Source: Zhouia spongiae
GTDB taxonomy: Bacteria; Bacteroidota; Bacteroidia; Flavobacteriales; Flavobacteriaceae
Length of the DNA: 64,000 bases
NCBI RefSeq assembly: GCF_022760175.1
Contig: NZ_CP094326.1
Span: 1 to 64,000 of the forward strand
Reading direction: 5' to 3'
Shown here: positions 57,521 to 63,126 of the stretch, piece after piece
Layout: every line of letters begins with the position of its first letter
How positions within the stretch are numbered: the stretch's first letter is position 1
Made by a program: the position numbers and the translations under genes
The notes under the pieces: model-generated
What the model was told of the DNA's origin: nothing
Database searches by the model: none
What the model saw: only the letters and a program-made list of their open reading frames with translations

Positions 57521-59641
57521 ATGAGCAGAAAAAATATTCAACATATTATCGTTAAAAAGTCTTCAGAACCTAAAGCTGATAAGGGTATTACATTCCAAAC
57601 AGCAGAAGGCATTCAGATAAAAGAGACTTATAATGCAGACGATATTAGCAATGCGGAACACTTAAACTTTGCCGCCGGTATCCCTCCATACCTCAGAGGT
57701 CCGTACTCAACCATGTATGTCAGAAGACCCTGGACCATCAGGCAGTATGCAGGTTTTTCTACAGCAGAAGAAAGCAATGCATTCTACAGAAGAAATTTAG
57801 CTGCAGGTCAAAAAGGACTATCCGTAGCTTTCGATCTTGCTACACATCGGGGATATGACTCAGATCACGACCGTGTAGTAGGTGATGTTGGGAAAGCAGG
57901 GGTTGCAATCGATTCGGTAGAAGACATGAAAATACTATTCGATCAGATCCCTCTCGATAAAATGTCCGTTTCAATGACCATGAACGGTGCCGTACTCCCC
58001 ATAATGGCATTCTATATCGTAGCTGCCGAAGAACAAGGCGTTAAACACGAACTGCTTTCAGGAACTATTCAGAATGACATCCTGAAAGAATTTATGGTCA
58101 GAAACACGTATATCTATCCGCCCAAACACTCAATGAAGGTGATAGCCGACATCTTTGAATATACAAGCAGGTATATGCCGAAATTCAACAGTATCAGCAT
58201 CTCGGGGTACCACATGCAGGAAGCCGGAGCTACTGCCGATATAGAATTGGCCTATACCCTGGCAGACGGTTTGGAATACATCAGAACAGGTCTCAGGGCA
58301 GGTATGAAAGTTGACGATTTTGCCCCTCGCCTCTCGTTTTTCTGGGCCATCGGAATGAACCATTTTATGGAAATTGCCAAAATGCGTGCAGGCAGAATGT
58401 TATGGGCCAGGCTGGTAAAACAGTTCAGTCCGAAAAATCAAAAGTCTCTGGCATTAAGAACACATTGTCAAACCAGCGGATGGAGTCTAACCGAACAGGA
58501 TCCATTCAACAATGTGGCAAGAACATGTATTGAAGCTGCCGCTGCTGCCTTTGGAGGCACGCAAAGTCTTCATACAAACGCTCTGGATGAAGCCATCGCC
58601 CTACCAACAGACTTTTCAGCCAGAATTGCCAGAAATACGCAGCTCTATCTTCAGGAAGAAACAAAAATCACCAAAACGGTCGACCCGTGGGCCGGCAGCT
58701 ATTACGTCGAAAGCCTTACTGACGAAATTACTCATAAAGCCTGGAAACTCATCGAGGAAGTAGAAGCCTTAGGCGGAATGACAAAGGCTATCGAAGCGGG
58801 AATCCCTAAAATGAGGATTGAAGAAGCCGCTGCCAGAAAACAGGCCCGTATCGACAGCGAACAGGATATCATTGTCGGGGTAAACAAGTACAGGCTCAAA
58901 CAAGAAGATCCGCTACAGATTTTAGAAGTCGATAACCAGGAAGTTCGAAGACAACAAATCGAACGGATCAATCAAATCAAAAACAGTCGAAATAATGAAG
59001 CCGTACAAACGGCCCTCGATAAATTAACCGCATGTGCTAAAACCAGTAATGGAAATTTATTAGCTTTGGCAATAGATGCTGCCAGAAACAGAGCGTCTCT
59101 CGGCGAAATCAGTGATGCGCTCGAAAAAGTTTACGGCAGGTATAAAGCAAGAATTCAATCTACCAGCGGCGTGTACAGTAAAGAAATAAAAGACGACGAA
59201 AACTTTGATAAGGCACGACAGCTAGCCGACAAGTTTGCCGAAACAGAAGGGCGAAGGCCACGTATAATGATTGCCAAAATGGGACAAGACGGACACGACC
59301 GCGGAGCAAAAGTAGTCGCTACCGGTTATGCAGATCTGGGCTTTGATGTCGATATTGGCCCCCTTTTTCAAACCCCCCGGGAAGCTGCAAAACAAGCCGT
59401 TGAAAATGACGTACACATACTTGGTGTTTCATCTCTTGCCGCCGGACACAAAACATTGGTTCCTCAGGTAATTGAAGAATTACAGAAATACGGTCGGGAT
59501 GATATTATGGTAATCGTAGGAGGCGTAATACCTCAGCAGGACTATCAATACCTTTTCGACGCAGGCGCTGTGGCCGTTTTCGGACCAGGCACCAAAATAA
59601 GTGAAGCAGCCATCAAAATCCTTGAAATCCTGATAGACTAG
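57521..59641 (+). CDS. mutB: Methylmalonyl-CoA mutase large (catalytic) subunit
   Basis: 706 residues. The TIM barrel carries [60 protein letters not shown] and [19 protein letters not shown]. The C-terminal B12 domain shows the DxHxxG motif in [20 protein letters not shown], then [19 protein letters not shown] and [12 protein letters not shown]. It interconverts (R)-methylmalonyl-CoA and succinyl-CoA with adenosylcobalamin. In Bacteroidota this links succinate and propionate metabolism. Confidence 0.97.
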
Positions 59642-59692
59642 ACTCCCATTTTAAAAAGAATCCCTTAAAATTATTTTTTTGAAATTTTATTT

Positions 59693-59708
59693 AGGACAAT
59701 TTTGTCCT
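59693..59708 (+). promoter_or_regulatory. Operator-like palindrome upstream of the broken Rrf2 gene
   Basis: AGGACAA-TT-TTGTCCT is a perfect inverted repeat. Its right half overlaps the TTTG -33 element of the promoter at 59701-59732. A degenerate copy (AAGATAATTTTATCCG) lies upstream of the NO reductase at 60125-60140. The likely ligand is an Rrf2-type repressor. Confidence 0.7.
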
Positions 59709-59732
59709 TTTAATGTTTTGTTTATACCTTTG
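59701..59732 (+). promoter_or_regulatory. Bacteroidota-type promoter for the Rrf2 gene
   Basis: TTTG (59701-59704), a 20-base spacer, then TACCTTTG (59725-59732) match the Bacteroidota -33 TTTG and -7 TAnnTTTG consensus at the usual spacing, 21 bases before the ATG at 59754. Confidence 0.75.
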
Positions 59733-59753
59733 CTATGATTTTTAACGTAAAAG

Positions 59754-60107
59754 ATGCTTTCAAAAACATGTGAATACGGGCTCAAAGCAGCAATTTTTAT
59801 AGCACTTCATTCAAATGATAATAACAGGGTCAGTTTGAAGGCTATTGCCGAACAGATCAATTCACCTGTTGCTTTTACCGCAAAATCTTACAGAAGTTGG
59901 TAAAGAGTAATATTGTTTGTTCTGTAAAAGGTAAGCATGGAGGATTCGAAATTGAGAAAAACAAGTAAATGCGACGACACACATCCTTGTCCAATCCATC
60001 TCAAGTTTATTTTTATCAGAGACCACTTAAAGTTTTTGCTTGAAACAACTCGTCTTGAAAACTTGTCACAAAGTATTAAAGATGGCCCCTCGTACTTAAG
60101 AACATAA
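59754..60107 (+). pseudogene. Rrf2-family (NsrR/IscR-like) regulator, frameshifted and internally deleted
   Basis: The first frame reads MLSKTCEYGLKAAIFIALHS and IAEQINSPVAFTAK, a standard Rrf2 winged helix, then shifts. The next frame continues ILQKLVKSNIVCSVKGKHGG FEIEKNK and stops. The C-terminal block CDDTHPCPIHLKFIFIRDHL then FLLETTRLENLSQS, with the family's Cys positions, follows in another frame to TAA at 60107. The segment between (in intact relatives, roughly 40 residues including the first Cys) is gone. The protein cannot be made whole. Its position before norB suggests the lost protein sensed nitric oxide or iron-sulfur status. Confidence 0.9.
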
Positions 60108-60124
60108 TTTTTTTAAATATAAAT

Positions 60125-60140
60125 AAGATAATTTTATCCG
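60125..60140 (+). promoter_or_regulatory. Second operator-like palindrome, upstream of norB
   Basis: AAGATAATTTTATCCG contains GATAA-TT-TTATC and matches the Rrf2-gene palindrome at 12 of 16 positions. It ends 13 bases before the norB ATG. Confidence 0.5.
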
Positions 60141-60153
60141 AATTGATTTTACT

Positions 60154-62394: not shown

Positions 62395-63126
62395 ATGGAA
62401 ACACTGGAAAAAAAACAAATTGGAGAATTTGTAGCAGACGATTTCAGAACCGCAGCTGTATTCTCAAAACATGGAATCGATTTTTGCTGTAAGGGAAACA
62501 GAACAATCGATGAAGTATGTTCTAAAAAGGGAATCGACAAAGACCTTCTGCTACATAGCCTGGAAGAAGTACTGAACAACAAGTCCGAACAATCTATCGA
62601 CTACAAATCGTGGCCTTTAGATCTGCTTATAGATTATATAGAGAAAAAGCATCACAGGTATGTAGAACAAACCACCCCCGTACTGTTGCAGTTCCTCGAT
62701 AAGTTAAGAAAGGTACATGGCGAAAGACACCCTGAACTGTTTGAGGTATATGAATTATTTTCCGGATCCGCAGGAGACCTGGCACAACACATGAAAAAAG
62801 AAGAACTTGTTTTATTTCCATTTGTAAAAAAAATGGTAAAAGCACGACTAACCGGAGAGGCGATTGAAATGCCGCACTTCGGAACTGTCGAAAACCCTAT
62901 TGAAATGATGAAACACGAACATGACAACGAAGGGGAACGATTCAGGGAGATCGCTAAAATAACCGGTAACTATACCCCGCCTGCTGACGCTTGTAATACC
63001 TACCGGGTTGCATTCTCGATGCTTGAAGAGTTTGAAAAAGACCTGCACCTCCATATTCATCTGGAAAACAATATTCTTTTTCCGGAAGCACTAAAACTTG
63101 AACACCTGTTCTCACAAGAGTCTTGA
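62395..63126 (+). CDS. scdA: Iron-sulfur cluster repair di-iron protein (ScdA/YtfE/RIC)
   Basis: 243 residues. The N-terminal DUF542 domain shows IGEFVADDFRTAAVFSKHGI and DFCCKGNRTIDEVC. The hemerythrin-like domain (about 80-240) has His/Glu ligands in YIEKKHHRYVEQTTP, GDLAQHMKKEELVLFPFVKK, MMKHEHDNEGERF and HLHIHLENNILFPEAL. It repairs iron-sulfur clusters damaged by NO or oxidants in the cytoplasm. The start is 3 bases after the norB stop, so they are one transcript; a strong terminator follows. Confidence 0.96.
   Translation: METLEKKQIGEFVADDFRTAAVFSKHGIDFCCKGNRTIDEVCSKKGIDKDLLLHSLEEVLNNKSEQSIDYKSWPLDLLIDYIEKKHHRYVEQTTPVLLQFLDKLRKVHGERHPELFEVYELFSGSAGDLAQHMKKEELVLFPFVKKMVKARLTGEAIEMPHFGTVENPIEMMKHEHDNEGERFREIAKITGNYTPPADACNTYRVAFSMLEEFEKDLHLHIHLENNILFPEALKLEHLFSQES

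Follow-up and report, generated by a model that had tools for sequence, protein, structure and literature searches.

NsrR is a regulator of the Rrf2 superfamily that carries three C-terminal cysteines, has a palindromic operator over its own promoter and is linked to genes for NO reductase, iron-sulfur repair and globins (PMC1274295, PMC4432287). The system described here resembles NsrR in all of these respects. Repression by NsrR ends when NO acts on its cluster (PMC4432287). On the other hand, our protein type scored 24.8 and 27.6 bits against the NsrR equivalog model NF008240, of which the cut-off is 182 bits. The operator is AGGAYAAWWTTRTCCT, which does not match the NsrR consensus gATGyAT-N5-ATrCATc (PMC1274295), and the cysteines are spaced C-x6-C-x5-C instead of C-x5-C-x5-C. 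We regard the protein type as NsrR-like by context only. The first-pass annotation of this DNA speaks of an "NO-type" Rrf2; membership in NsrR was not borne out by the curated model.

Flavobacterial metagenome scaffolds have also been reported to carry Rrf2-family regulators close to clade II nosZ (PMC6264515). These genes are similar to the present system in lying beside denitrification genes in Flavobacteriia/CFB but differ in that the portion of that report consulted presents the gene neighbourhood, without an operator, a regulon or a broken regulator. The clade II nosZ carriers of Flavobacteriia matter for N2O consumption, and little is known of their regulation (PMC6264515). Our literature search found no Flavobacteriia Rrf2 operator, regulon or regulator turnover of the kind described below. 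Two further comparisons are with genes identified in this study. The IscR/CymR-type Rrf2 (genome positions 2025111-2025518) belongs to the same superfamily and is encoded in the same genome, but its recognition helix, ENISKKFLEMILL, is unlike that of the paralogue described below and its gene adjoins sulfate-assimilation genes. The intact norB-linked rrf2 genes of Galbibacter, Aquimarina, Aestuariibaculum and Marixanthotalea occupy the orthologous position and are accompanied by the same two operators, and differ from the locus studied here in being whole.

The window analyzed comprises the first 64,000 nucleotides (64 kb) of the 4.04-Mb, single-contig genome of Zhouia spongiae. Here, 512 nt separate a methylmalonyl-CoA mutase-like gene from norB (Table 1); a mutase-like gene also precedes the intact rrf2 in Galbibacter. 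NorB of the window and that of Zhouia amylolytica share 91% identity. No NCBIfam model matched the window NorB at E<=0.001, although the protein is strongly conserved across the family.

Table 1. Features of the rrf2-norB locus in the window.
Feature	Position	Strand	Basis
Methylmalonyl-CoA mutase-like gene (upstream neighbour)	57521..59641	+	ORF; order mutase-rrf2-norB also in loci L016 and L101
Candidate operator 1, AGGACAATTTTGTCCT, over the promoter -33 element	59693..59708		Matrix score 22.6; conserved before intact rrf2 genes
Promoter, Bacteroidetes-type (TTTG 59701-59704; TACCTTTG 59725-59732; spacer 20)	59701..59732	+	Sequence, alignment
rrf2 pseudogene, orthologue of norB-linked Rrf2	59754..60107	+	Frameshift, stops and deletion relative to intact orthologues; tree
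Candidate operator 2, AAGATAATTTTATCCG, just upstream of the norB ATG (60154)	60125..60140		Matrix score 19.5; same site in relatives with an intact gene
norB, quinol-type nitric-oxide reductase, 745 aa	60154..62391	+	ORF; named by homology and gene context
scdA/ytfE, di-iron iron-sulfur repair protein (RIC)	62395..63126	+	TIGR03652, 242.9 bits (cut-off 204.7)

The 512-nt region contains the wreck of a Rrf2-family repressor gene. Frame 1 starts with the ATG at 59754 and encodes the beginning of a winged helix typical of Rrf2 proteins over ~43 residues, to ...AFTAK, with stops at 59901 and 59925. The middle stretch of homology, ILQKLVKSNIVCSVKGKHGGFEIEKNK, lies in a different frame from the N-terminal piece, and the C-terminal stretch (KCDDTHPCP...SYLRT), ending at 60107, is back in frame 1. 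In the alignment with the intact genes of Aquimarina, Galbibacter and Marixanthotalea, an A-run near 59882 was found to be one base short and ~80 nt were found to be deleted at about 59963-59967. The two ends of the remnant share a frame because the one-base shortfall and the ~80-nt deletion add up to 27 codons. Thus, the frameshift claimed in the first-pass annotation is present, and its estimate of about 40 lost codons was too high. The deletion takes out the first of the three C-terminal cluster cysteines. With the frameshift, two stops and ~80 nt lost, the frame is disrupted relative to the intact orthologues, as in a pseudogene, and the profile scan of the genome for Rrf2 did not list the remnant, as expected of a broken gene. 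In the phylogeny, the window pieces clustered with the norB-linked Rrf2 of Aquimarina with support of 96/96.

The gene appears to have been functional until recently. Over 115 comparable codons, the remnant and the intact Aquimarina gene differed at 35/18/74 first/second/third positions, while pairs of intact genes with similar protein identity showed, for instance, 27/21/65 and 38/21/66 differences. The remnant retained 50 of the 57 residues that do not vary among six intact genes, and its pieces contain no stops beyond those created by the frameshift; in simulated neutral decay with 0.5 changes per site, only ~1% of the runs stayed stop-free. The functional-type codon-position bias, the lack of extra stops and the retention of invariant residues together support a recent loss of the repressor in this genome, as had been suggested earlier. 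On the codon-position counts and the lack of extra stops, a long-standing neutral relic was rejected for the gene.

Both palindromes look like real operators. The one before rrf2 is intact and covers TTTG, the -33 element, as the first-pass annotation had it, and TACCTTTG constitutes the -7 box; the promoter is in keeping with the flavobacterial consensus TAnnTTTG (PMC9723704). We trained a palindromic position matrix with 62 promoters (29 distinct sites), all from intact norB-linked rrf2 genes of other genera, which yielded TTTAGGACAAATTTGTCCTAAA as the family operator consensus. The sites at 59690 (22.6) and 60122 (19.5) ranked first and second in the 64-kb window, the latter corresponding to the related palindrome before norB, and first-order Markov sequences of the same length contained 0.017 sites scoring >=19 per 64 kb. 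AGGAYAANNTTRTCCT occurs exactly once in the 4.04-Mb genome, as operator 1. Both palindromes were found conserved upstream of intact rrf2 homologues; the refuting outcome named in the first-pass annotation, a lack of this conservation, was not observed. Third in the ranking, with a score of 15.0, is a site within a SusC-like gene (1839-1860), probably a chance match given an expectation of 0.23 such sites per 64 kb.

Each of the two Zhouia genomes encodes only two Rrf2 proteins above the Pfam cut-off, one being IscR/CymR-like and the other of the norB-linked subtype. The latter, an unlinked paralogue (genome positions 3541473-3541904; 85% identical in Z. amylolytica), scored 83.6 bits for the Rrf2 superfamily (PF02082/TIGR00738; cut-off 73.3 bits), and the intact Aquimarina-type gene scored 92.7. 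The three C-terminal cysteines are present in the paralogue and in the intact orthologues, and the recognition helix of the paralogue, IDSPEAFTAKIMQ, is nearly identical to that of the norB-linked type, INSPEAFTAKILQ. Its own promoter bears the operator-like AGGACAAACTAGTCTT. As the paralogue's own operators are imperfect (scores of 16.4 and 16.5), its operator preference could be slightly different. In both Zhouia species, the paralogue is followed by a gene that we name truncated-haemoglobin-like from its sequence, for which no NCBIfam model was matched. The unlinked Zhouia pair stood apart in the phylogeny (100/99); the deeper branching, including that between the paralogue and the norB-linked genes, was without resolution. 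A comparison of the paralogue sequence with solved structures returned nothing at E<=0.001.

We consider it probable that the linked rrf2 died recently and that the promoter and both operators stay under selection because the unlinked paralogue of the same subtype binds them. The best reading is that the paralogue has taken over, or has always shared, control of norB-scdA. In the mechanism that we infer, the paralogue would bind the same palindromes as the dead repressor and repress both the old rrf2 promoter and the site next to norB as long as its iron-sulfur cluster is intact, and, by analogy with NsrR, an attack of NO on the cluster would lead to release. The old rrf2 promoter would transcribe norB-scdA via a ~415-nt leader containing the dead gene.

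The first-pass annotation had left the choice between constitutive expression of norB-scdA and takeover by another Rrf2 protein. Takeover by a related repressor encoded elsewhere is the most likely reason for the kept operators, because these survive in the gene-less Z. amylolytica, an operator precedes nos, and a same-subtype paralogue remains. Constitutive expression, with the operators being relics yet to decay, is unlikely in our view. As the loss in the window genome is recent, relic operators are expected there for a time, and the promoter under operator 1 must be retained anyway; the conservation of operator 1 could be in part that of the promoter, as the two overlap. Z. amylolytica, the one congener compared, argues against constitutive expression, however. 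It possesses no rrf2 but a 108-nt spacer, in which no remnant was recognisable, and yet its operator 1 scored 21.0, a 38-nt run covering operator 1 and the promoter is identical to that of the window, and its operator 2, AGGATAAATTTATCCT, is a perfect palindrome that overlaps no recognisable promoter. Between the two species, norB and the mutase gene agree at just 36% of their 4-fold sites (near saturation). We regard the two losses as independent, because, at such synonymous divergence, the remnant in the window would no longer be readable had the loss been common to both species; a shared ancestral loss in Zhouia was rejected on this ground. The existence of a paralogue with a matching recognition helix and the retention of the nos operator in both Zhouia species also stand against constitutive expression.

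The distribution of the operator across genomes is consistent with a trans-acting regulator. The strict operator pattern matched 5 sites in the window genome and 5 with the reversed-pattern control; therefore, the placement at norB and nos, not the number, is the evidence. The rrf2-norB pair accounts for two of the 5 sites, a third precedes the cytochrome-nosZ operon, and the last two are apparently due to chance (one examined). The loose pattern (2 mismatches) was not enriched genome-wide (82 matches vs 118 in the control), and thus strict matches alone were used. The remaining one-mismatch and strict-pattern sites examined were within or near unrelated genes. The sites upstream of nirK in the two Zhouia species were weaker (11.2 and 11.7). 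All of the three strict sites in Aestuariibaculum (G115) are at nirK and norB, and three of the six in Marixanthotalea (G226) are at rrf2, norB and nirK. As the operator precedes nos in both Zhouia species and nirK in the latter two genera, action in trans is likely normal for it.

It is less probable still that the palindromes are used by another regulator, such as a CRP/FNR-type NO regulator, or function as RNA, for instance in terminating transcription of the mutase gene. FNR-like TGAYNNNNRTCA boxes are present at nos and nirK in both Zhouia species, but none was found before norB in either. The RNA of operator 1 can form a 6-bp hairpin (-7 kcal/mol, z -3.2), whereas that of operator 2 is unfolded (-0.7 kcal/mol, z 0.3), and the terminator was rejected on this difference. 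Furthermore, the motif follows the Rrf2 subtype across genera at a constant position relative to the promoter. Whether linked to norB or to a globin gene, nearly all members of the subtype carry the palindrome ~40 nt upstream of the start, and most Rrf2 genes of <36% identity were without it. Apart from this, the FNR/CRP-like boxes TGACATTTATCA and TGATAAATATCA/TGATAAATGTCA at nos (genome ~684965) and nirK (~69250-69450), seen in both Zhouia species, suggest that part of the regulon has a second regulator.

It is very improbable that the lesions stem from assembly errors in a gene that is whole in the organism. The lesions were read from a single assembly and the frameshift lies within a homopolymer, where an indel alone could be a sequencing error, but a ~80-nt deletion hardly results from usual base-calling errors and would by itself remove the first cluster cysteine and put the downstream codons out of frame; the sister species is also without the gene. 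We give even less credence to the possibility that the pieces still act, as a short winged-helix fragment or as a 56-residue C-terminal peptide whose start would lie inside the gene at 59937, since, despite residual codon bias and the internal ORF 59937-60107, the first stop (codon 50) precedes completion of the winged helix, the first-cysteine segment is gone and the sequence is wholly lost in the sister species.

Takeover by an unlinked Rrf2 protein gains further support from other genera. G244 (L032, reversed locus ~690-1090), which belongs to a genus other than Zhouia, has a strongly decayed rrf2 upstream of norB, and its operator is identical to that of the congener G014 with an intact gene (21.8 each); an unlinked Rrf2 copy is kept. 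Arenibacter possesses no linked rrf2 but a norB operator (20.6) and an unlinked copy, which adjoins scdA and cupin genes, and Flavobacterium BC.034 likewise combines the lack of a linked rrf2 with a norB operator (16.7) and unlinked Rrf2. Because the same constellation recurs in these three cases, a trans-acting user of the operators is supported. Across the genomes compared, the linked repressor has thus been lost and its operators kept on separate occasions, in Zhouia in at least one sister species and also outside this genus. Parallel loss of the linked repressor, preserved operators and an identified candidate heir would make these loci a natural experiment in regulator turnover, and the palindrome and the genes that it precedes provide a candidate operator and regulon for the control of NO and denitrification in Flavobacteriia. 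We are evenly divided on the broader proposal of a Flavobacteriia-wide NO regulon, in which a distinct Rrf2 subtype would act through AGGAYAAWWTTRTCCT at norB, nirK, nos, globin and rrf2 genes, the linked repressor being repeatedly and independently discarded and unlinked paralogues inheriting the operators. Separately, Rrf2-like genes with in-frame stops were observed at five loci of Flavobacteriaceae (L215, L273, L276, L280 and L281), and Rrf2 genes may often be lost in this family.
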